Source of the DNA: Paludisphaera soli | GTDB taxonomy: Bacteria > Planctomycetota > Planctomycetia > Isosphaerales > Isosphaeraceae | Assembly (NCBI RefSeq): GCF_011064595.1 | Contig: NZ_JAALJI010000005.1 | Coordinates: 1-64,000, forward strand | Direction: 5' to 3' | DNA: 64,000 nt | Shown: positions 20,245 to 30,211 of the stretch, piece by piece | How the letters are laid out: every line of letters starts with the position of its first letter | Position numbering within the stretch: position 1 is the stretch's first letter | Program-made: the position numbers and the translations under genes | Notes under the pieces: generated by a model | What the model was told of the DNA's origin: nothing | The model's input: the letters and a program-made list of their open reading frames with translations, nothing else | Databases searched by the model: none

Positions 20245-21615
20245 ATGATGCGCCCGCACCGATCGTCGCGACGCCCCGCCCGAAGGCCGGTTCTGGAATC
20301 GCTGGAGGGGCGCCGCCTGTTGACGGCCGCCCCGTCGGCGATCGCGAGCCAGCTGGACCCGTCGGGGGGGCCGTACGCCGTCTTCCTGGCGTTCTCGCGG
20401 ACGGTCGAGGAGTCCGAGGGGGTGATCCAGGTCGCGCTCATGCGCACGGGCGACCTGACGACCGCGGCGACGATCTCCGTCCGCACGGCCCCGGTCACGG
20501 CGCTGGAGGGATACGACTTCGTCCCCCTCGACCGGGTGGTGACGTTCGCCGCCGGCGAGGCCGAGGCGACGTTCGATCTCGCCATCGTCGACGACGCGAT
20601 CTCGGAGCCCCTGGAGAAGCAGCTCCGGCTGGAGCTGTATCGCGGCGAGGAGGACGACCTGGTCGCCACTACGGCGCAGACGGTGACGATCGTCGACGAC
20701 GAGCCGGGGAGCGCCTCGCGGCTCGTGTTCCACGCCTTCGGCGCCGCCGGGCTCTGGACGTACAACGAGGCGGAAGGCTACCGCAAGATCAACGACGGCT
20801 CCCCCGAGGCGATCGTCGCCGCCCCCGGGCGCGGGGCCTACCTGGACTTCGGCCCGGCCGGCCTCTGGTCGTGGGACGCCCTGCGCGGATATTCCCGGCT
20901 CAGCCACGTCGACCCGGAGATCATCCTGACGTCGAGCCTCGGCGAGCGGGCCCTGATCGACTTCGGCCACGGCGGGGTCTGGCAGTGGTCGGCCGAAGGG
21001 GGCTACGCCAAGGTCCACGACCTGAGCCCGCGCGCGATGTCGGGCTTCCCCGGCAGCGCCGTCTTCGACTACGCCGAGCACGGCCTCTGGACCTGGAACG
21101 AGAACACCGGCTGGGCGAAGGTCCGCGACTACGGGCCCGAGCAGATGCTGAACGCCGGGGGCGTCTACTTCCTGGACTACGGGGTCTTCGGCCTCTGGCG
21201 GCTCGACGCCGGCGGCGCCGTGGCGCGCGTCCACGAGGGGAACGCCGAGGAGATGACGCTGCTCCCCTATGGGATCCTCGTCGACTTCGGCTCCGCGGGC
21301 CTCCGGAAGCTGGGCGACTTCGACGTGTGGTCGCAGGTCAGCTCGCATTCGCCGAGGGCGATGCTCTCGTCCGAGCTGCTGGACTTCGGGGCCGGGGGCT
21401 TCTGGCGGCTGGCGGCGGACGGGACCTGGAGCAAGCTCAACACCGTCGCGCCCCGATCGGTCGTCTACGCCGCCCCCGACCTGGTCCACATGGACTACGG
21501 CGACGCCGGGCTCTGGACCTGGTCGGCCGCGACGGGCTGGCGGAAGCTCAACCCCGCCCGCGCGACGCTGCTGGGCTTTGCCATGACCGAGCCGATCGTG
21601 CGCCTGCCGGGCTGA
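20245..21615 (+). CDS. Secreted Calx-beta protein with eight WxW-type repeats, paralogue A
   Basis: A 456-residue protein. The basic N-terminus ends in 'VLESLEGRRLLTA', the export/anchor motif of planctomycete surface proteins. Residues of about 45-155 form a Calx-beta domain ('GYDFVPLDRVVTFAAGEAEA', ending VTIVDDEPGSAS). From about 160 to the end there are eight repeats of 35-45 residues of the form (h)xDFGxxGLWxWxxxxGYxKhxDxxPExh, for example 'FGAAGLWTYNEAEGYRKIND'. The repeat pattern suggests an eight-bladed propeller or stacked beta unit. It is probably extracellular. Two paralogues follow directly. Confidence 0.8.
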   Translation: MMRPHRSSRRPARRPVLESLEGRRLLTAAPSAIASQLDPSGGPYAVFLAFSRTVEESEGVIQVALMRTGDLTTAATISVRTAPVTALEGYDFVPLDRVVTFAAGEAEATFDLAIVDDAISEPLEKQLRLELYRGEEDDLVATTAQTVTIVDDEPGSASRLVFHAFGAAGLWTYNEAEGYRKINDGSPEAIVAAPGRGAYLDFGPAGLWSWDALRGYSRLSHVDPEIILTSSLGERALIDFGHGGVWQWSAEGGYAKVHDLSPRAMSGFPGSAVFDYAEHGLWTWNENTGWAKVRDYGPEQMLNAGGVYFLDYGVFGLWRLDAGGAVARVHEGNAEEMTLLPYGILVDFGSAGLRKLGDFDVWSQVSSHSPRAMLSSELLDFGAGGFWRLAADGTWSKLNTVAPRSVVYAAPDLVHMDYGDAGLWTWSAATGWRKLNPARATLLGFAMTEPIVRLPG

Positions 21616-21758
21616 CCGGCGGCCGGGCCCGGCGGCGCCGGGGGTCTTCCCGCCGGGCCGCACGATTCGTTATGATCGCCGACGGCCGGGCCGGCATGGC
21701 GTCCGATCGGATGAGGACGCGCCGGGCGGGCCGCCGCACGCCGGGATGGAGCCTCAGC

Positions 21759-23204
21759 ATGATGCGAGTGCAGCAGGGTCGGGCGCGTCGTCGTCGAAAC
21801 CGCTCGTGGGGCCTGGAGCCGCTGGAGGATCGGCGGCTCCTGACGCAGTATTACTTCCCCGCGGACCCGAATCTGTCGCTGATCGACCTCGAGTCGGGGC
21901 CCGCCTTCGTCTCCGAGTCGGCGGGCGAGGCGACGTTCACGGTCGGCCGGAGCGGCGACGTCTCCGGGCCGGCGAGCGTCCGGGTGGAGACGCGTCCGAT
22001 GCAGGCCGTTCCGGGGTACGACTACGTCCCCCTGGAGACGACGCTGACGTTCGCCCCGGGCGAGACGCGGGCGACGTTCAAGGTGAAGATCCTCGACGAC
22101 CGGATCGCGGAGCCGACCTACAAGAGCATCCGGGTCGAGTTGAGCGACGCGGTAGGCGCCTACAGCGTGGGGGCCCAGCGGAGCCGGGAGGTGACGATCG
22201 CCGACGACGAGCCGGCGAGCGCGTCGCCGCTCACGTACCACGCCTTCGCCGGGGCCGGGCTCTGGACGTACAACGAGGTCGAGGGCTGGCGGAAGATCAA
22301 CGACGCCACGCCCGAGGCGATCGTCCCGGCCCCGGATCGCGGGGCCGTCCTGGACTTCGGCCCGTCGGGCCTCTGGGCGTTCGACGAGCTGCGCGGGTAT
22401 CGCAAGCTCAACGACGTGGACCCCCGGGCGATCCTGGGCTCCGCCTGGACGAGCGACCTGCTCGTCGACTTCGGCCACGGCGGCCTCTGGACCTGGAACG
22501 AGCGGGAAGGCTACCGCAAGATCAACGACGCGGTCCCCGACGCGATGGCCGGCGACGCCTCGGGCTGGGTGATGCTCGACTTCGGGGCACACGGCCTCTG
22601 GTCCTGGTCGAGCGGCGCGGGCTGGGGCCGGATCCGTGACCACGGCCCGGAGGCGATGCTCGTCACCCCGGGGGGGGGCGGGCAGGCCTACCTGGACTAC
22701 GGCGCGGACGGGCTCTGGGAGTGGCATCCGTCCGGGACCCTCCTGCAGCTCTCCGAGGCCGACCCCGAGACGATGGCCGTGCCCGTCGGCGGCGAGCTGT
22801 ACGTCGGCTTCGGCCCCTTCGGGCTCTGGAACTGGAGCGCGTACCGCTACAGCTGGAAGAAGGTCAACGACGTCGCCCCGCGCGCGATGGCGACCGACCC
22901 CCGCGGCCTGCCGCAGCTCCTCGACGGCACCCCGCCGCCGGCCCTGTTCCTGGACTACGGGGACGACGGCCTCTGGCGGCTGGGGGATTACGGGGCGTGG
23001 GACCGACTCAATGACGTCGGGCCCGCGAGCGTCACCTACGCGGGCGTGGACGACCTGCTGCTGAACTACGGGACGGACGGGCTCTGGCGATGGACCCGGA
23101 AGGGTGGCTACGCCAGGCTCCGCGACGTCGCGCCGACGGCCTCGGCGGTCGCCTCCTCGGCGGCGATCTTCCGGGGGACGGTCCGCGACTTCCTCGCGGT
23201 CTGA
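21759..23204 (+). CDS. Secreted Calx-beta protein with eight WxW-type repeats, paralogue B
   Basis: A 481-residue protein with the same architecture as the preceding gene: Arg-rich start, 'GLEPLEDRRLLTQ', Calx-beta domain ('GYDYVPLETTLTFAPGETRA', ending VTIADDEPASAS), then eight repeats ('FHAFAGAGLWTYNEVEGWRK', 'LVDFGHGGLWTWNEREGYRK' and others). Both the first Met and the following Met would serve; the segment GGATGGAGCC-CAG before the start is shared with paralogue C, supporting 21759 as start. A TATGAT at 21671 may be its own -10. No catalytic residues are seen. Confidence 0.8.
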   Translation: MMRVQQGRARRRRNRSWGLEPLEDRRLLTQYYFPADPNLSLIDLESGPAFVSESAGEATFTVGRSGDVSGPASVRVETRPMQAVPGYDYVPLETTLTFAPGETRATFKVKILDDRIAEPTYKSIRVELSDAVGAYSVGAQRSREVTIADDEPASASPLTYHAFAGAGLWTYNEVEGWRKINDATPEAIVPAPDRGAVLDFGPSGLWAFDELRGYRKLNDVDPRAILGSAWTSDLLVDFGHGGLWTWNEREGYRKINDAVPDAMAGDASGWVMLDFGAHGLWSWSSGAGWGRIRDHGPEAMLVTPGGGGQAYLDYGADGLWEWHPSGTLLQLSEADPETMAVPVGGELYVGFGPFGLWNWSAYRYSWKKVNDVAPRAMATDPRGLPQLLDGTPPPALFLDYGDDGLWRLGDYGAWDRLNDVGPASVTYAGVDDLLLNYGTDGLWRWTRKGGYARLRDVAPTASAVASSAAIFRGTVRDFLAV

Positions 23205-23319
23205 CCCGGGGCGCGTCGCCGCGCCGGCTGGGACTCCGAACAGCTTACGACGACCGGCCGCGCCCGGTCGGGCCGCGCCGCGGCCCCGGGCCGGCCGGAC
23301 ACCAGGATGGAGCCGCAGG

Positions 23320-24711
23320 ATGAAGCGAACGAAGCCAGGACGGGCGCGACGACGTGCGGGGGGCAAGCCGACCCTGGAGACGCTGGAAGGCCGCCGGATG
23401 CTCTCGGGCCCCGGGACCGAGGGCGTCGGTCCGCAGGCCTCGGCGGTCGTCTCGCTGATCGAGTTCGACCGGGCCTCGATCCGGACGGTCCAGGAATCAA
23501 CGGCGACCGTGTCGTTCCTCGTCAAACGGACCGGCGACCTGTCGTCCGCCGCGACCGTGCGGGCCCGGACCGTGGCCGGCACGGCGCTGGAGGGGTACGA
23601 CTACGTCCCGCTCGAGACGACGCTGACGTTCGCCCCCGGCCAGCCCACCGCGACGTTCGTGGTGAGCCTCGTGAACGACGCGATCGCGGAGGCGCCGTAC
23701 AAGCCGTTCCGGGTGCTGCTGGAGGGCCCGAGCGAGGGGGCCGGGCTGGGGCAGGTTTCGATCGCCCCGGTGACGATCCTCGACGACGAGCCGGACTCCA
23801 AGCTGCCGATGACCCTGCTCGACTTCGGCCCGCACGGGGTCTGGACCCACGGGCCGAACGGGGGCTTCCGCAAGATCCACGACGGCGGGGCGCAGGCGAT
23901 CGCGGCCTCGTCGAACCGGAACGCCTACCTGGACCTCGGCGGGGACGGGCTCTGGGCGTGGGACTCGCTTCGCGGGCTCCGCCGGCTGGCCGAGGCCGAC
24001 CCCGAGAACATCGTGGTCGTCAACGACGACTGGAACCACGCCGAGGACGTCCTGCTCGTCGATTTCGGCCCCACCGGCCTCTGGCGGTTCAGCGAGAGTC
24101 GGGGCTGGGCCCGGCTCAGCGACGTCGACCCCCGGGCGATCGTCGTCGACCGCCTGGACGCCTACATCGACTTCGGCCACGGCGGCCTCTGGCGGTATCG
24201 CGACGCGTCGCCCTCCTGGTACAAGCTCAACGACGTGGCGCCCGAGTCCATGGCCGCCGACGGCGTGCTGTTCCTCGACTACGGCTCGCGCGGGATCTGG
24301 AGCTGGGCCGCCGCCCAGGGCTGGCGGAAGGTGGGCGAGGGGGACCCCCAGGCGATCGCCGGCTCCGGGACGACGCTCTACGCCGACTTCGGCGCCGCCG
24401 GCGTCTGGAGCCGGACCGAGGCCGACGGCTGGTTCCAGGTCGCCGCGGCCGACCCGCGCTCGATGCGCGTGGCGGGCGGGACCCTCTTCCTGGACTTCGG
24501 CGTCCACGGCCTCTGGTCGTGGGGGACGGGCGCGACGCCGGCCTCGCGGTTCACCAGGCTGACCGACGCCGCCGTCGAGTCGTTCGCCGTCGGCCCGGCC
24601 GGCGACCGGGCGGTCGTCGACGCGGGCACCGCCGGCGTCTGGATCTGGACCCGCGACGGCTACCGCCGCCTGAACGCCGCCAACCCGACGGCGATCGCCG
24701 TGACCGCCTGA
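23320..24711 (+). CDS. Secreted Calx-beta protein with eight WxW-type repeats, paralogue C
   Basis: A 463-residue third member: 'MKRTKPGRARRRAGGKPTLE' then TLEGRRMLSG, Calx-beta domain ('GYDYVPLETTLTFAPGQPTA', ending VTILDDEPDSKL), and eight repeats ('LLDFGPHGVWTHGPNGGFRK' through 'VVDAGTAGVWIWTRDGYRRL'). It is the most diverged in the repeats, with the fourth and seventh longer. The 5' flank ACCAGGATGGAGCCGCAGG resembles that of paralogue B, so the duplicated unit included the leader. The three genes are separated by 143 and 115 bases. Confidence 0.8.
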   Translation: MKRTKPGRARRRAGGKPTLETLEGRRMLSGPGTEGVGPQASAVVSLIEFDRASIRTVQESTATVSFLVKRTGDLSSAATVRARTVAGTALEGYDYVPLETTLTFAPGQPTATFVVSLVNDAIAEAPYKPFRVLLEGPSEGAGLGQVSIAPVTILDDEPDSKLPMTLLDFGPHGVWTHGPNGGFRKIHDGGAQAIAASSNRNAYLDLGGDGLWAWDSLRGLRRLAEADPENIVVVNDDWNHAEDVLLVDFGPTGLWRFSESRGWARLSDVDPRAIVVDRLDAYIDFGHGGLWRYRDASPSWYKLNDVAPESMAADGVLFLDYGSRGIWSWAAAQGWRKVGEGDPQAIAGSGTTLYADFGAAGVWSRTEADGWFQVAAADPRSMRVAGGTLFLDFGVHGLWSWGTGATPASRFTRLTDAAVESFAVGPAGDRAVVDAGTAGVWIWTRDGYRRLNAANPTAIAVTA

Positions 24712-24763
24712 CGGCGCCGGGGCGTCGCGGCCCCCCATCCGGTAGCCTGGGGTCTGGGCCACG

Positions 24764-24782
24764 AGGCAGGCAGGCAGGCAGG
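24764..24782. repeat. Short tandem repeat (GGCA)n
   Basis: Four tandem GGCA units lie just before the DUF4058 remnant. The run is close to its ribosome site. Confidence 0.6.
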
Positions 24783-24793
24783 AGGGCGCGTCG

Positions 24794-24927
24794 ATGCCGT
24801 CACCGTTCCCGGGCATGAATCCGTACCTGGAGCAGCCGGCGCTCTGGCCCGATTTTCAGACGAAGGCGCTTCTCGGCATCAAGGAGGAGCGGCTCGTCTC
24901 GTTGATACGCCCTCGCTGCTTCGCGCC
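24794..24927 (+). pseudogene. DUF4058 protein, N-terminal remnant
   Basis: The frame opens with 'MPSPFPGMNPYLEQPALWPD', which is the hallmark start of DUF4058 proteins (usually 250-280 residues). After about 40 codons the sequence runs into a MITE-like repeat at 24928, and beyond it the frame is only the antisense of the P1 peptidase gene. So just the first sixth of the gene remains. Confidence 0.75.
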
Positions 24928-25030
24928 GGGTGCCACGGGTTCTCTGAACCCGTGGATCGGCGTCGGGCCCATCCCGGACCGTTGCCGAAATCCCTGGCCT
25001 GTCCACGGGTTCGGAGAACCCGTGGCACCC
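24928..25030. repeat. MITE-like element copy 2 with terminal inverted repeats
   Basis: A 103-base element, GGGTGCCACGGG-TTCTCTGAA-CCCGTGG at one end and CCACGGG-TTCGGAGAA-CCCGTGGCACCC at the other, with ATCGGCGTCGGGCCCATCCC in the middle. It is a homologue of 14479-14582 and marks the breakpoint of the DUF4058 remnant. Confidence 0.8.
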
Positions 25031-25075
25031 GAAGGATTCCCGCCCACGCTCGGCGAATTCGAACGAGGGTCTCGA

Positions 25076-26254
25076 TCAGGGGATCCGGTTGTACTTCCGG
25101 AGCGCCTCGCGGACGCGGTCGACGGGGATCGCTTCGACGGACCGGCCGCCGGCGCCGGTCATGTCCTCGGCCCGGAGCAGGGCGTTGCAGACGGCCTCCT
25201 CGACGCCTTCCAGCGCGGCCTGGAACAGGGGGGAGACGGCGTCGGTGGGGAGGACGGTGCGGGGGCGGCGGCGTTCGTCGCCGTGGGCGACGCGGAGGCC
25301 GGGCGCGGTGGAGAAGGCGACGGCGTAGTCGCCGCTGCCGTTGGTGAACGACGAGCCGACGCGGGCCAGGCCGAACACGGCGCGGGCCGCCAGCCGCTTC
25401 AGGTCGCGGGCGTCGAGCGGGGCGTCGGTCGCCACGACGATCAGGCACGAGCCGTCGCCGTCGCGGCGGTCGCCCTTGTCCGGCGGGTCGTTGGCGGCGA
25501 CGCGGAAGGCGTGGCGGCCCAGCTCCTTGCCGATCGGGGCGCCGGCCATGGTGAGCACGCCGCCGAAGTTCGCCTGGACGAGCACGCCGACCGTCCAGCC
25601 GCCGAGGCGGTCGGGGAGCTTGCGCGAGGACGTGCCGATCCCCCCCTTCCAGCCGAAGCACTCGCAGCCCGTCCCCGCGCCGACGTTCCCCTCGGCGACC
25701 GGGCCGTCGGCCGCGGACTCGATCGCGCGGAGGACGTGCTCGCGGCGGACGTGCAGGCCGCGGATGTCGTTGAGCCCGCCGTCGTTGGTCTCGCCGACCA
25801 GGGCGTTGACCGAGCGGACGTCCTCGTGGCCGGGGCGATCCAGGGTGTAGCGGACGACGGCCTCGACCGCCGCGCCGACGGAAAGGGTGTTGGTCAGGAC
25901 GATCGGCGTCTCGATCGCGCCGAGTTCCTCCACCTGGGTCGAGCCCGCGAGCTTGCCGAACGCGTTGCCGACGAACACCGCGCCCGGGACCTTCTCGCGG
26001 AAGAGGTCGCCGCCGTGCGGCAGGATCGCCGTGACCCCGGTGCGGACCGAGGCCCCCTCGATCAGCGTGGTCTGCCCGACCTTGACCCCGGGGACGTCGG
26101 TGATCGCGTTCAGCGGCCCCGGCGCGAACACGCCGGGGGCGACGCCCAGCTCGCGAACGCGAGGCCGCGGCGGCGCGGGGGGCTCGGCGGCGGGAGCGGG
26201 GAGGTTGAAGACGACGGCGATCGTGAGACATCGAAGGAGCTGGCGGGTAGTCAT
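25076..26254 (-). CDS. P1 family peptidase (DmpA/L-aminopeptidase, S58)
   Basis: A 392-residue exported N-terminal-nucleophile peptidase. A signal peptide (MTTRQLLRCLTIAVVFNLPA) is followed by 'LNAITDVPGVKVGQTTL', 'GVTAILPHGGDLF', 'VFVGNAFGKLAGSTQVEELG', and the self-cleavage site 'SFTNGSGDYAVAFS' where Ser307 becomes the new N-terminal nucleophile in this family. Known members release N-terminal residues from short or D-amino-acid peptides. The ATG 26254 is chosen over upstream frames that run through REP sequence. It is periplasmic by its leader. Confidence 0.92.
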   Translation of the reverse strand: MTTRQLLRCLTIAVVFNLPAPAAEPPAPPRPRVRELGVAPGVFAPGPLNAITDVPGVKVGQTTLIEGASVRTGVTAILPHGGDLFREKVPGAVFVGNAFGKLAGSTQVEELGAIETPIVLTNTLSVGAAVEAVVRYTLDRPGHEDVRSVNALVGETNDGGLNDIRGLHVRREHVLRAIESAADGPVAEGNVGAGTGCECFGWKGGIGTSSRKLPDRLGGWTVGVLVQANFGGVLTMAGAPIGKELGRHAFRVAANDPPDKGDRRDGDGSCLIVVATDAPLDARDLKRLAARAVFGLARVGSSFTNGSGDYAVAFSTAPGLRVAHGDERRRPRTVLPTDAVSPLFQAALEGVEEAVCNALLRAEDMTGAGGRSVEAIPVDRVREALRKYNRIP

Positions 26255-26304
26255 GAATCGTCGCCTTTCCGAACCGGCGGCGGCAGGTTGACGCCCCGGC
26301 CCCT

Positions 26305-26331
26305 GCGCCCGGGCGGGCCGCCCGGGCCACC
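26305..26331. repeat. REP palindrome 1 near the RAYT gene
   Basis: GCGCCCGGGCGG-G-CCGCCCGGGC followed by CACC. The stem pairs GCCCGGGCGG with CCGCCCGGGC. Same orientation as the copy at 27000. Confidence 0.85.
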
Positions 26332-26370
26332 GTATTCGATTCCCATCGGCCTCGGCAAGGTCCCCGGGAC

Positions 26371-26976
26371 TCAAGAATCTGGTGGCCCGGGCGGTCCGCC
26401 CGGGCGAGCGGGGCTGAAGCCTTCCTCGAAGCCCTGAGCATCGCCATACCACCACGGGTAATCCTCGGGGGTCGGGCAGAGGCCGGCCTCGACGGGATTG
26501 TTGTTCATATAGACCCAGGTCTCCCAGAACTCAGGCTCGTCGCGCATGATGCGGTCATAGCGCTCGTCCTGCCAAACAGGGCCCGAAGTGGCGTGAAGCC
26601 TATTGATGGCTCGCGCCGAGAACCCCTTGTTGGTGTGAAGGATCTCCGCCAGCGAGTAGAAAGTCCCATCCTCGCGCCGAACGGGCGTGGTCAGGACGTG
26701 GACGTGGTCCGGCATGACGACGATGGCGTGGAGCAGATAACGCCGACGGTCCCAGTGCCGCCAATTGCCCAGGACGAGGGAGCGGTCGGCCTCGTCGAGC
26801 GCCCGCCCCGGGGCGCAGCGATAGGTCAGGAAGTACGTCGAGCCGCCGAGCTGCCAGTGGGGCAGGGTCCGCCTCGTCCGGAGCAGGCGGGAGTCGATCG
26901 GCCTGATCCGACGGTCGGGGCCTGGCGGGGCGGGGGGGCCGCCATCGGGGGGGTCGCCCGACTGCGAATGGGACAT
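26371..26976 (-). CDS. REP-associated tyrosine transposase (RAYT, Y1/HUH family)
   Basis: A 201-residue single-stranded-DNA transposase of the IS200/IS605-related RAYT group, whose members bind and cleave REP hairpins. The HUH motif is 'MPDHVHVL'; the catalytic Tyr is probably in 'WQDERYDRIMRDE'; the family tail 'YMNNNPVEAGLCPTPEDYPW' is present. 'LGGSTYFLTYRC' gives the first strand. The ATG at 26976 follows GGAGCC. The last twelve codons (ARPGGPPGPPDS) are written by a REP copy. REP palindromes lie on both sides, so the enzyme and its probable substrates are together. Confidence 0.92.
   Translation of the reverse strand: MSHSQSGDPPDGGPPAPPGPDRRIRPIDSRLLRTRRTLPHWQLGGSTYFLTYRCAPGRALDEADRSLVLGNWRHWDRRRYLLHAIVVMPDHVHVLTTPVRREDGTFYSLAEILHTNKGFSARAINRLHATSGPVWQDERYDRIMRDEPEFWETWVYMNNNPVEAGLCPTPEDYPWWYGDAQGFEEGFSPARPGGPPGPPDS
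26381..26409. repeat. REP palindrome 2, inside the RAYT coding end
   Basis: GGTGGCCCGGGCGG-T-CCGCCCGGGC, in inverse orientation to the copies at 26305 and 27000. It supplies the C-terminal codons of the RAYT gene just before the TGA at 26371. Confidence 0.85.
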
Positions 26977-26999
26977 GGGTGGCTCCTCCCAGGGCGCTC

Positions 27000-27027
27000 G
27001 CGCCCGGGCGGACCGCCCGGGCCACCA
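27000..27027. repeat. REP palindrome 3 near the RAYT start
   Basis: GCGCCCGGGCGG-A-CCGCCCGGGC followed by CACCA, just upstream of the RAYT ribosome site. It is the third copy of the same hairpin within 730 bases. Confidence 0.85.
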
Positions 27028-27074
27028 TTCTTCTCTTCACTCATCCATAAGCGGCGCCCTGCCCGGCCGCCACG

Positions 27075-27118
27075 AAAAAAAAGGCCCGCCCCCGACGTCG
27101 AGGCGTCGGGGGCGGGCC
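27075..27118 (-). terminator. Intrinsic terminator of the secDF operon
   Basis: On the minus strand a 15-base-pair perfect stem (GGCCCGCCCCCGACG with its complement) and a six-base loop are followed by eight T residues. It lies about 30 bases beyond the secDF stop. This is the clearest rho-independent terminator in the window. Confidence 0.93.
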
Positions 27119-27145
27119 CTGGATGGGGGGGAGTCTTCGTTGGCG

Positions 27146-30100
27146 TCAGCGCGAGGCGACGGCCTTGGACGACTTGTCGCCGGGCCTGGCGAGGGCGTCG
27201 TGGCCGTGGTCCTCGTGGCCGATCCAGTCGACGAGGATCGGGGTGGCGATGTACACGGTGCTGTAGGTGCCGCTGAGGAAGCCGACGACCAGGGCGAAGG
27301 CGAAGCCGTGGAGCCCCTCGCCGCCGAGGACGTACAGGACGACCACGACGAGCCAGGCGGTGAGCGACGTCAGGATCGTCCGGCTGAGGGTCTGGTTGAT
27401 GGCGTCGTTGACCAGCTTGGGGGTGAGGTGGGGGCTCTTGCCCTTGATCTCCCGGATGCGGTCGAAGATGACGATCGTGTCGTTCACCGAGAAGCCGATG
27501 AGCGTCAGGAAGGCCGCGACGATCGGCAGGTCGATCTTGAACTGGTCGATCATCAGCAGCGTGTTCAGCCCAGGCACGAGCGCCAGCCAGTAGCTGACGG
27601 CGATGGCGCCCAGGGTGATGAGCACGTCGTGGACGACGGCGAGCACCGCGGCCAGGCCGTAGGTGAAGGAGTGGAACCGCCACCAGAGGTAGAAGATGAT
27701 GATCAGCCAGCTCGCCACGGTGGCGATCAGGGCCAGGGTCCGGGTCTCCGAGGCGACCGTGCTGCCGAAGTTGGCGATCCGCTCGAACAGCATGTCGCGG
27801 TTGTTGGCCAGCGAGTCCTTCAGCGCGGCGAGGTGGGCCTGGGCGGCGTCGGGATCCAGGTCGGTCTTGAGCACCAGCCGGGTCCCCTCGGCGGGGGCCT
27901 GGCCGCCGGAGCCGGCGGGGACGATCTCGAACCGGGAGTTCGGGTTGACGATCCCGGCGGCGTCGAGCACGCGGGCGAACTCGGCCGAGACGACCTGGGC
28001 CGGCGGCTGGGTGCTGTTGAACGACGTGGTGTTGAACGCCAGCTCATACTCGCGGCCGCCGGCGAACCGGGCCGCGATCGTCGACGGGGCTTTCGCCCCG
28101 GCGGCCGCGGCGGCGGGGGCCGGCGCCCCGGCGAGGGCCTTCTCGGCGCCCACGGTCATCTCGACCTTGGCGAGCGACGGGCCGAACGCCTCGATGATCT
28201 GGTCCTTGACCTTCGTCGAGTCCTGCTCGGTGGTCCGGATGTTGAACCGGGCCGCCTTCTCCTTCTGGTTCTGGCTGACGCGGAGGCTCTCGATGGTCAC
28301 GTCGGGCAGGACGCCGGCCTTCTCGCGGACGAACTCCGTGCGCTTGCTGTCGGTCAGGCTGCGGACGGTGGCGTCGGCCTCGTTCAGGCGGATGGTGACC
28401 AGGGTGCCGCCGGTGAAGTCGATGTTGTACATCGTCCGGCCGCGGGCGAAGAACGCGGCCAGGCCCAGAACGATCAGCACCAGGGAGACCGCCATGCAGT
28501 AGTAGCGGGGGCCGACGAAGTCGATGTTCGTCTTCTCGAACATCTTGCGGAAGTGCAGCTCGCGGAGCCAGCCGTGCAGGTAGGCGGTCTCGAAGATGTA
28601 CCGCGACATGAAGACCGCGGTGAACAGGTTCCAGAGCATGCCCAGGATCATCGTGAGGGCGAAGCCCTTCACTTCCTCGGTCCCCACCGCGTACAGCACG
28701 ATCGCCGCCAGCAGGTTGGTGACGTGCGAGTCGAAGATCGTCACCCAGGCCCGGTTGAACCCGTTGCGGATCTGCTGGGCGAGCCCGGCCCCGCGCTCCT
28801 TCTCCTCCCGCATGCGCTCGAAGACCAGCACGTTGGCGTCGACCGCCATGCCGATCGTCAGCGCCAGGCCCGCCAGGCCCGGCAGCGAGAACGTGGCCTG
28901 GATGAACGCCATCGAGCCCACGAGCAGGATCATGTTCACGATCAGGGCCACGACCGCCACCACGCCGGCGAACCGGTAGTAGGCGATCATGAAGATCGGC
29001 ACGATCAGCATCGAGACCCAGATGGCCCGCCAGCCCTTGGCGATCGAGTCCTCGCCGAGCGTCGGGCCGACGTTCTCCTCCTGGAGCGGCGTCGGGTCGA
29101 GGCTCGCCGGCAGGCTGCCGGCCTGGAGGATGTTGATGAGGTGCTGGACCTCCTTCAGCTTGAAGCCCTGGCCGCCCCCCTCGATGATCCCCGAGTCGCG
29201 GATCTCCGAGTTGATCGACGGGGCCGACATCACCAGGTTGTCCAGCAGGATCGCCAGCTGGTAGCGGAAGGCGTCGCCTTCCTCGGGCAGGTGCTCGCGG
29301 GTCAGCTGGCCGAACTTCCGGGCCCCCTGGCGGTTGAACTGGAAGCCCACCGCCGGCTGGAGCTTCTCGTCCGTCTGCTGATACGCCCGCGAGAGGTACT
29401 TGCCGGTCACGTCCTGGCGGTCCTGGACGCAGAGGATGAAGATCTCGGTGCGGCCGTCGGAGACCTTCTCCTCGCGGACGATCGGGTCGCCGGGCCGGGG
29501 GTTCGTCGGGTCGCCGCCGCGGATGCCGCTGGGGTTGTACTCGACCCGATACGAGGCGATCGACTTGAGATTGTGGGGCTCGGCCAGGGTCAGCGTGTCG
29601 GCCGTGTTGCGGACGATCGGGATCGCCAGGGTCTTGTCGGCGCCCCCCGCGTCCTTGCCGGTCAGCACGACCTCCACGCCGGCGTAGAGGTCGCGCTTCC
29701 AGCGCTGATTCGGGTCGGTGATCGTGACGTCGGTGAACTGGGGGTCGTTCCCGTTGGAGATCTCGCCCAGGCGGGCCCACTTGTAGCGGGCGGGGGGCTT
29801 GGCCAGGCCGCCGGGGCCCATGGCGCGGGCGATCGCCTCGGAGTCGTGCTTCTGGTTGGCGAGGATGCGGAACTCCAGCGAGCCCACGTCCGTCAGCATG
29901 TTCTTGATCTCTTCGACCTCCTCCGGGCTCGCCTTCGGGAGGATGATCTCCAGCCGGTTGTTGCCGATGTTGCGGATCGGCGTCTCCTTCACCCCCTGCG
30001 GGTCGGCGCGCTGCTTGAGCGCGGCGATCAGCTCCTCCATGTTGAAGTTGGGGGCCTGCTGGCTCTCCTTGGCGACCTCGTACACGAGGATCGTCCCCCC

Positions 30101-30211
30101 GGAGAGGTCGATGCCCAGCTTCAGCTTCTTCTCGGGGGGATACATGGCGATCAGGCCCAGGAGGGTCGATCCCACGATCAGGATGCTCTTCCAGTTCACT
30201 AGGTTCTTCAT
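27146..30211 (-). CDS. secDF: Protein translocase subunit SecDF (fused)
   Basis: A 1021-residue fusion of SecD and SecF, an RND-type membrane machine that uses the proton gradient to pull secreted proteins across the membrane. The SecD part has an N-terminal helix, 'LGIDLSGGTILVYEV', the P1 domain end 'NLVMSAPSINSEIRDSGIIE', and 'GMAVDANVLVFERMREE'. The SecF part starts near residue 580 with 'YNIDFTGGTLVTIRLNE' and has 'GFSVNDTIVIFDRIREIKGK'. Periplasmic Ala/Pro insertions are longer than usual. It is the last gene of the tgt-yajC-secDF operon. Confidence 0.96.
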   Translation of the reverse strand: MKNLVNWKSILIVGSTLLGLIAMYPPEKKLKLGIDLSGGTILVYEVAKESQQAPNFNMEELIAALKQRADPQGVKETPIRNIGNNRLEIILPKASPEEVEEIKNMLTDVGSLEFRILANQKHDSEAIARAMGPGGLAKPPARYKWARLGEISNGNDPQFTDVTITDPNQRWKRDLYAGVEVVLTGKDAGGADKTLAIPIVRNTADTLTLAEPHNLKSIASYRVEYNPSGIRGGDPTNPRPGDPIVREEKVSDGRTEIFILCVQDRQDVTGKYLSRAYQQTDEKLQPAVGFQFNRQGARKFGQLTREHLPEEGDAFRYQLAILLDNLVMSAPSINSEIRDSGIIEGGGQGFKLKEVQHLINILQAGSLPASLDPTPLQEENVGPTLGEDSIAKGWRAIWVSMLIVPIFMIAYYRFAGVVAVVALIVNMILLVGSMAFIQATFSLPGLAGLALTIGMAVDANVLVFERMREEKERGAGLAQQIRNGFNRAWVTIFDSHVTNLLAAIVLYAVGTEEVKGFALTMILGMLWNLFTAVFMSRYIFETAYLHGWLRELHFRKMFEKTNIDFVGPRYYCMAVSLVLIVLGLAAFFARGRTMYNIDFTGGTLVTIRLNEADATVRSLTDSKRTEFVREKAGVLPDVTIESLRVSQNQKEKAARFNIRTTEQDSTKVKDQIIEAFGPSLAKVEMTVGAEKALAGAPAPAAAAAGAKAPSTIAARFAGGREYELAFNTTSFNSTQPPAQVVSAEFARVLDAAGIVNPNSRFEIVPAGSGGQAPAEGTRLVLKTDLDPDAAQAHLAALKDSLANNRDMLFERIANFGSTVASETRTLALIATVASWLIIIFYLWWRFHSFTYGLAAVLAVVHDVLITLGAIAVSYWLALVPGLNTLLMIDQFKIDLPIVAAFLTLIGFSVNDTIVIFDRIREIKGKSPHLTPKLVNDAINQTLSRTILTSLTAWLVVVVLYVLGGEGLHGFAFALVVGFLSGTYSTVYIATPILVDWIGHEDHGHDALARPGDKSSKAVASR

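Follow-up and report, generated by a model that had tools for sequence, protein, structure and literature searches.

Three tandem Paludisphaera soli proteins join a Calx-beta domain to a predicted eight-bladed beta-propeller

Introduction

PMC8567305 credits Studholme et al. (2004) with proposing a planctomycete export motif, and from the form given there, RRLxxExLExRxLLA, we take the core ExLExRxLL. The same paper reports 52 motif genes in Tuwongella immobilis, 20 of them detected, eight of these in the sodium dodecyl sulfate fraction only. For highly repetitive propellers, Pereira and Lupas (PMC9218822) describe a continuum of blade numbers; they give the Asp-box motif as SxDxGxTW. Here we describe three genes, A, B and C, lying head to tail on the plus strand of a 64,000-nucleotide stretch of Paludisphaera soli (contig NZ_JAALJI010000005.1, positions 1 to 64,000; hereafter the window). 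Each encodes an export motif, one Calx-beta domain and eight repeats, which we predict to fold as an eight-bladed beta-propeller. A literature search, with closed journals, preprints and supplements outside its scope, found no title or abstract on this repeat.

Results

Eight repeats and a predicted ring

A preliminary description of the window had assigned to each of three paralogues, placed end to end, an export motif, a lone Calx-beta domain whose final residues read DDEP and a set of exactly eight repeats, and the open reading frames (ORFs), Pfam and leave-one-out repeat profiles all agree with it (Table 1). When the profile was trained on the other two proteins, it recovered 8, 8 and 8 repeats in A, B and C, with 19 of the 24 single repeats below E 1e-8 and the worst at 0.0055 (database size 1000). 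As a control, A, B and C were shuffled to give 600 sequences, of which the three-protein profile listed 57 at E <=10, the best at 0.044. Among six-frame ORFs of at least 60 residues in the window, none besides A, B and C passed E 1e-3. The repeats are 33-49 residues long (mostly 36-38, about 37), and run almost to the C-terminus. Across the family, the median identity between blades of one protein is 32-63%.

AlphaFold2 modelled B, from nine related rows, with a mean predicted local distance difference test (pLDDT) score of 82.6, a predicted template modelling (pTM) score of 0.76 and 32 strands in the repeats (8 x 4). A seven-bladed relative, L026 (labels in L and G denote loci and genomes), was modelled from three rows with pLDDT 92.5, pTM 0.88 and 28 strands (7 x 4). 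In VIA overlays, residues ~150-470 of the B model superimposed on NirF 6tv2 (Z 19.5, root-mean-square deviation (rmsd) 4.0, 306 residues), and the model also matched NirN 6rte (Z 19.3), AztD 6ck1 (Z 18.5) and the designed Scone-E 7ax2 (Z 18.4), all of which we take to be eight-bladed. Level with NirF was the WD40-type IFT-A ring 8f5p_E (Z 19.6, rmsd 3.5, 285 residues). The eight-bladed propeller that had been suggested for these repeats is thus well supported as a prediction. Within the repeat the strand order is B-C-D-A, from which the last strand of the chain would pair into blade 1, and the ring is probably closed and locked in this way.

For the L026 model, the first 18 of 50 VIA rows were Photorhabdus PLL/PHL lectins (Z 22.1-23.7, rmsd 2.3-2.5), which represent one lectin family rather than independent matches; the best overlay, 8q82_A, covered 249 of 263 residues at Z 23.7 and rmsd 2.3. 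Tectonin-2 5fsc_B appeared at Foldseek rank 26 for this model, and tectonin, tachylectin and NHL proteins were absent from the 50 VIA rows listed for either model, an absence that excludes nothing. Profile searches of the PDB gave insignificant matches throughout (E at least 0.05). The richness of the repeats in aromatics would suit an open array of independent carbohydrate-binding units that never closes into a ring, yet the AlphaFold2 models overlay closed rings and all 41 genus proteins counted below have only seven or eight repeats, so we consider such an array the most improbable arrangement.

Table 1. Coordinates of genes A, B and C and of their parts in the window
Feature	Position	Strand	Size or basis
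Gene A: export motif, Calx-beta, predicted eight-bladed propeller	20245..21615	+	456 aa
Gene B: export motif, Calx-beta, predicted eight-bladed propeller	21759..23204	+	481 aa
Gene C: export motif, Calx-beta, predicted eight-bladed propeller; same-branch relatives in four other species	23320..24711	+	463 aa
A: Calx-beta, aa 53-152	20401..20700	+	Pfam PF03160, E 2.4e-13
B: Calx-beta, aa 42-150	21882..22208	+	Pfam PF03160, E 1e-15
C: Calx-beta, aa 47-157	23458..23790	+	Pfam PF03160, E 1.8e-17
A: eight repeats, predicted propeller	20725..21612	+	Repeat profile
B: eight repeats, modelled as 8 blades of 4 strands, aa 158-465	22233..23201	+	AlphaFold2 and repeat profile
C: eight repeats, predicted propeller	23815..24708	+	Repeat profile
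Leader of B: TTATGAT box and GGATGGAG before ATG; alike in several orthologues	21670..21758	+	Alignment, by eye
Leader of C: GGATGGAGCCGCAG, resembling the leader of B	23306..23319	+	Alignment, by eye

A new family of a well-known fold

The blade consensus, [YF][VLI]D[FY]G[PA]xGLWRW....GWxKLNDADPEAMA....dG, was built from 290 of ~313 blades in 41 proteins of the genus, the weakest (<=10 bits) and the longest and shortest having been dropped. Its aspartate is conserved at 92%, the two glycines at 93 and 100%, the tryptophan at 97% and the proline at 89%. Insertions in these blades fall before strand B (37) and in the CD loop (20), with seven more scattered singly over other sites and the BC turn free of them, so that one face of the ring varies and the other is almost constant. 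The Asp-box spacing is absent from the consensus: in D[FY]GxxGLW the tryptophan stands two residues further from the aspartate.

Searches of Pfam and NCBIfam with the window repeats at E <=10 listed no match other than a sub-cut-off PUD hit in A (E 0.32), with HMMER filters hiding most weaker matches. Relatives reach further. Two exceed the NHL (PF01436) cut-off of 20 bits (L026 at 22.1, L041 at 21.4), and one of the two L019 proteins, L021, L041 (up to 34.6 bits) and L057 exceed the SSL_N cut-off of 18.9; in each case the match spans about 15 residues, and any one stretch taken alone falls short. Read from the proline, the seven-bladed relatives resemble NHL/SSL blades (PEGFA...GTLYVDFGPHGLW). 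A distant relative from another class of the phylum (L079, 1-1431) shares the blade, keeps its DxDxNGxDD loop intact and reaches the Pfam FG-GAP cut-off at E 2.1e-12. Because relatives reach the NHL and SSL_N cut-offs and this distant one is an FG-GAP propeller, the repeat belongs to a known superfamily. The claim that it is of an undescribed type is supported for the window repeats, which match no Pfam or NCBIfam model; with them, A, B and C represent a new family within a well-known fold. Each repeat can be assigned to the NHL/FG-GAP neighbourhood of propeller blades, with the calcium loop missing.

L079, with its calcium-loop blade, is possibly an ancestor-like form. Its blade profile aligned in hhalign with that of 27 blades from five seven-bladed genus proteins, with a probability of 86% over 24 columns. 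This alignment and the loops of L079 would fit a calcium-loaded, integrin-like FG-GAP/VCBS propeller in the window as well. The AB loop of A, B and C has no DxDxDG and Pfam FG-GAP is not listed for them; we regard that identity as highly improbable and rejected it for these three proteins on the absence of the calcium loop.

Another planctomycete repeat, SGTWxYxxxxWxQLTxAvaxxi, occurs in about seven units in L066 (3396-4331) and L067, and may be a cousin of the A/B/C blade.

Calx-beta domain, export motif and leaders

The Calx-beta domains score well above the PF03160 cut-off of 27 bits (A 50.6, B 58.3, C 63.9), one per protein. In the AlphaFold2 model of B, this part overlays Calx CBD1 3ead over 114 residues (VIA Z 18.1, rmsd 1.3), and phmmer aligns the domain of C with 3ead at E 3.6e-10. 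By that alignment for C, and through their mutual alignment for A and B, acidic residues coincide with the glutamate of TVxE, the aspartate of GxD, one or two acids of IDDD, a glutamate and the final DD of CBD1, while the other CBD1 acids fall on non-acidic positions; which of the CBD1 acids bind calcium is an assignment that we take as given. Three long Calx-beta members (L017, L037, L044) have about 400 repetitive-looking residues ahead of the domain that match no Pfam family at E 0.05, perhaps a second propeller.

The N-terminal motif ExLExRx[LM]L is present in all three proteins, as ESLEGRRLL, EPLEDRRLL and ETLEGRRML; A and B have the published core exactly, and C has one L to M change. 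The starts of B and C were chosen by this motif and by the GGATGGAG-like site before the ATG, the upstream frame being open from 19695 for B and from 23104 for C. The leader said to be shared by the three genes is common to B, C and several orthologues, and that of A differs. The TTATGAT box before B looks like a -10 element, and a similar box with the GGATGGAG leader recurs in B, C and orthologues (21670-21758 and 23245-23319). A separate promoter for each gene is possible.

Seven or eight blades

Blade number was counted in 41 proteins with unbroken arrays from six genomes of the genus (G029 11, G000 and G032 10 each, G030 5, G031 4, G028 1). Three arrays were read by eye and the rest automatically: L050 (7 or 8, with a gap, taken as 8), the L044 frame at 1743 (9 with one split, taken as 8) and L045 (7 or 8, taken as 8). 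Two broken arrays were excluded, L043 (two frames with 1 + 5 blades) and a one-blade frame at 14513 in L037. Among the loci, L023-L028 are repeats of genes from G032, and L001-L015, L029-L036, L060-L062 and L075-L078 of others; L064-L067, L073 and L079 lie outside the genus, L064 being retained in the trees.

All 41 proteins have either seven or eight blades. The eightfold count of the window proteins extends to every protein with Calx-beta directly before the ring (24/24), and not to most of the others: 15 of the 17 without Calx-beta, which carry PPC, HExxH, CAP, Big_9 or nothing recognised, have seven, and the remaining two, the PA14 protein L018 and L056, have eight. Eight blades and Calx-beta also occur together in L064, from another family of the class (G111). 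Fisher's test on 24/24 against 2/17 gives p 2e-9 with descent ignored. An independent-pairs test gives p 0.5 from two usable pairs only, and with so few of them the association may still reflect shared descent. In the trees, L041, L051 and L053, with Calx-beta and eight blades, fall within an otherwise seven-bladed clade, beside seven-bladed L021, and the approximately unbiased (AU) test rejects a single clade of all 26 eight-bladed genus rows at p 0.015, for a group named after the first tree was seen, with repeats that align imperfectly and with gain and loss indistinguishable.

A wider reading, which we think rather unlikely, is that ring size is set by the adjoining domain, eight blades with Calx-beta and otherwise seven, as Calx-beta docks on the ring and the two act as one rigid unit whose recognition is gated by calcium. 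On this view the number of blades would have changed on more than one occasion under that constraint, and the family would descend from an FG-GAP/VCBS calcium-loop blade, calcium dependence having moved from the ring to the Calx-beta stalk.

Duplication, locus and distribution

The recent duplication proposed for the three genes does not fit their relationships, and we rejected a recent tandem origin because other species carry orthologues of both A and C. C is 63, 59, 53 and 48% identical to genes of four other species (tblastn), compared with 41% to A; A and B share 47% (MAFFT for both pairs). In the trees, C groups with genes from four genomes (G029, G030, G031 and G032) and with the L018 ring (support 100/100), and A with one G032 gene (98/72 and 98/82). 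As each is paired with genes of other species, the A and C duplications are older than the species. The ring closest to that of C is L018 8613-9515, at the end of a 1962-residue PA14 frame in the same genome; at 69-75% identity, it is best explained, on sequence grounds, by a recent transfer of the ring between the two genes.

The array adjoins a convergent secDF gene (27146-30211; Pfam SecD_SecF_C E 4.8e-70). Comparison of window 20245-30211 with L037, L044, L054, L081, L083 and L085 placed an array beside secDF in four genomes, with three copies here, six in G029, six in G032 and one in G031. In G030 the C-type copy shares a contig with secDF at a distance of ~42 kb. The only propeller gene of G028, which also has secDF, belongs to the seven-bladed PPC type and lies elsewhere. 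The slot at or near secDF thus holds 0-6 propeller gene copies, varying by species. Broken ring copies in G029 (L043 ~1722-2660, L037 14513-14900) point to a birth-and-death turnover of these genes.

At E 1e-5 the family was found in 6/6 genomes of the genus and 0/39 other genomes of its taxonomic family, where E 1e-3 added one weak match (8.5e-4). Of 397 genomes from the class, 19 gave a match at E 1e-3, with at most six candidates scored per genome; six are the genus and the other 13 range from 9.4e-58 (G111) to 8.5e-4. In the phylum sample, 2/392 genomes match at E 1e-5, our own and the FG-GAP relative. A single pattern scan of genome_contigs, the only search to cover other phyla, returned 24 stretches, of which six were confirmed, all from the metagenome-assembled genome Planctomycetales bacterium 71-10. 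Outside the genus, the A/B/C-type family thus appears sparse.

The seven-bladed domain of L026 had no match among plasmids or phages; B matched ten plasmid records, all within aa 29-180, the Calx-beta part, and 23 pattern matches in viral contigs yielded no confirmed relative. A plasmid, phage or viral origin was rejected, as the propeller had no confirmed match in these sets.

Between the array and secDF, the start of a DUF4058 gene lies at 24794-25000 (E 3.6e-10 over 40 residues), where the similarity seems to end early, and a gene at 26374-26976 has a sub-cut-off Y1_Tnp match (16.5 bits against 23).

Discussion

We favour, with about even confidence, the reading that the three proteins are exported and act in binding, at the cell surface or outside the cell, with the ring as the recognition module. 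The N-terminal motif would direct export, as published work on it suggests, and Calx-beta would serve as a spacer stiffened or stabilised by calcium, if it binds this ion. The C-terminal ring would then be the recognition module, with a putative targeting or adhesion role; the ligand, at a guess, is most likely a glycan or matrix polymer, bound between blades or on the indel-rich AB/CD face. In genus proteins the same ring stands C-terminal behind PPC, HExxH regions, CAP, PA14, Big_9 or Calx-beta, and its presence on HExxH and CAP proteins is most simply explained by a module for targeting or adhesion.

Several results weigh against this reading. The lead of the PLL lectins in the L026 overlays is small (Z 23.7 against 21.8 for YVTN 1l0q and 21.7 for RCC1-like 4l1m, with WD40 rings lower). 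No lectin is among the 50 VIA rows listed for the eight-bladed B model, and PLL lectins are not among the matches listed in the family profile searches of the PDB. The conserved blade tryptophans may merely pack between blades. Pfam Planc_extracel (PF07595), with a cut-off of 25.5 bits, is not reached by A (13.7) or C (13.2) and is not listed for B. Foldseek, for its part, ranks virginiamycin/streptogramin B lyases first for the L026 model (2z2n, E 4.1e-9, TMq 0.64), as would be expected if the proteins were enzymes, for example lyases of the virginiamycin B type; many unrelated propellers score nearly equally, however, and the conserved residues are the blade consensus, recurring in every blade, which leaves an enzymatic role very doubtful.

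A possible though less probable account is that the proteins are structural and scaffold the cell wall or the extracellular matrix, the ring binding other surface proteins and not glycans. WD40 and RCC1 rings overlay the B and L026 models almost as well as the best matches, propellers are common protein-protein platforms, and Calx-beta and immunoglobulin-like neighbours are typical of adhesins. The ring also occurs on HExxH and CAP proteins, however, for which targeting to a substrate or surface is simpler.

With these genes the surface proteins of planctomycetes gain a propeller family for which Pfam and NCBIfam have no model. Its close relatives with seven or eight blades form a natural set for how ring size changes, and its small members (~460 aa) are suited to probing what planctomycete surface rings bind.

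Compared with known systems, the Calx-beta domains are like those of Na/Ca exchangers, with 30-34% identity and rmsd 1.3-1.4 to the B model (3ead, 3gin; VIA), whereas here the domain is single, fused to a propeller and part of a probably extracellular protein. Like NHL/SSL propellers, the blade can be read from the proline as PxxxA...dGtlYvxDfg...W, and some relatives reach Pfam NHL or SSL_N; unlike them, the window proteins have no NHL or SSL_N match listed at E <=10, and the rings of the family have seven or eight blades. The VIIDFGxxGIW blade of L079 links the genus blade to FG-GAP/VCBS propellers, whose calcium loop DxDxDG is absent from A, B and C, with no Pfam FG-GAP match listed for them. 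No tectonin or tachylectin family is listed by Pfam for A, B or C. The seven-bladed Photorhabdus PLL/PHL lectins give the best VIA overlay of L026 (rmsd 2.3-2.5, 249-252 residues), whereas they are not among the matches listed by sequence profiles and the window rings are predicted to be eight-bladed; we know of no PLL lectin with a Calx-beta domain. NirF, NirN, AztD and Scone-E overlay B over ~281-308 residues at only 9-12% identity, and we presume their functions to be unrelated. Finally, set against the continuum of blade numbers described in PMC9218822, the A/B/C family shows two values only, seven and eight, among the 41 proteins counted.

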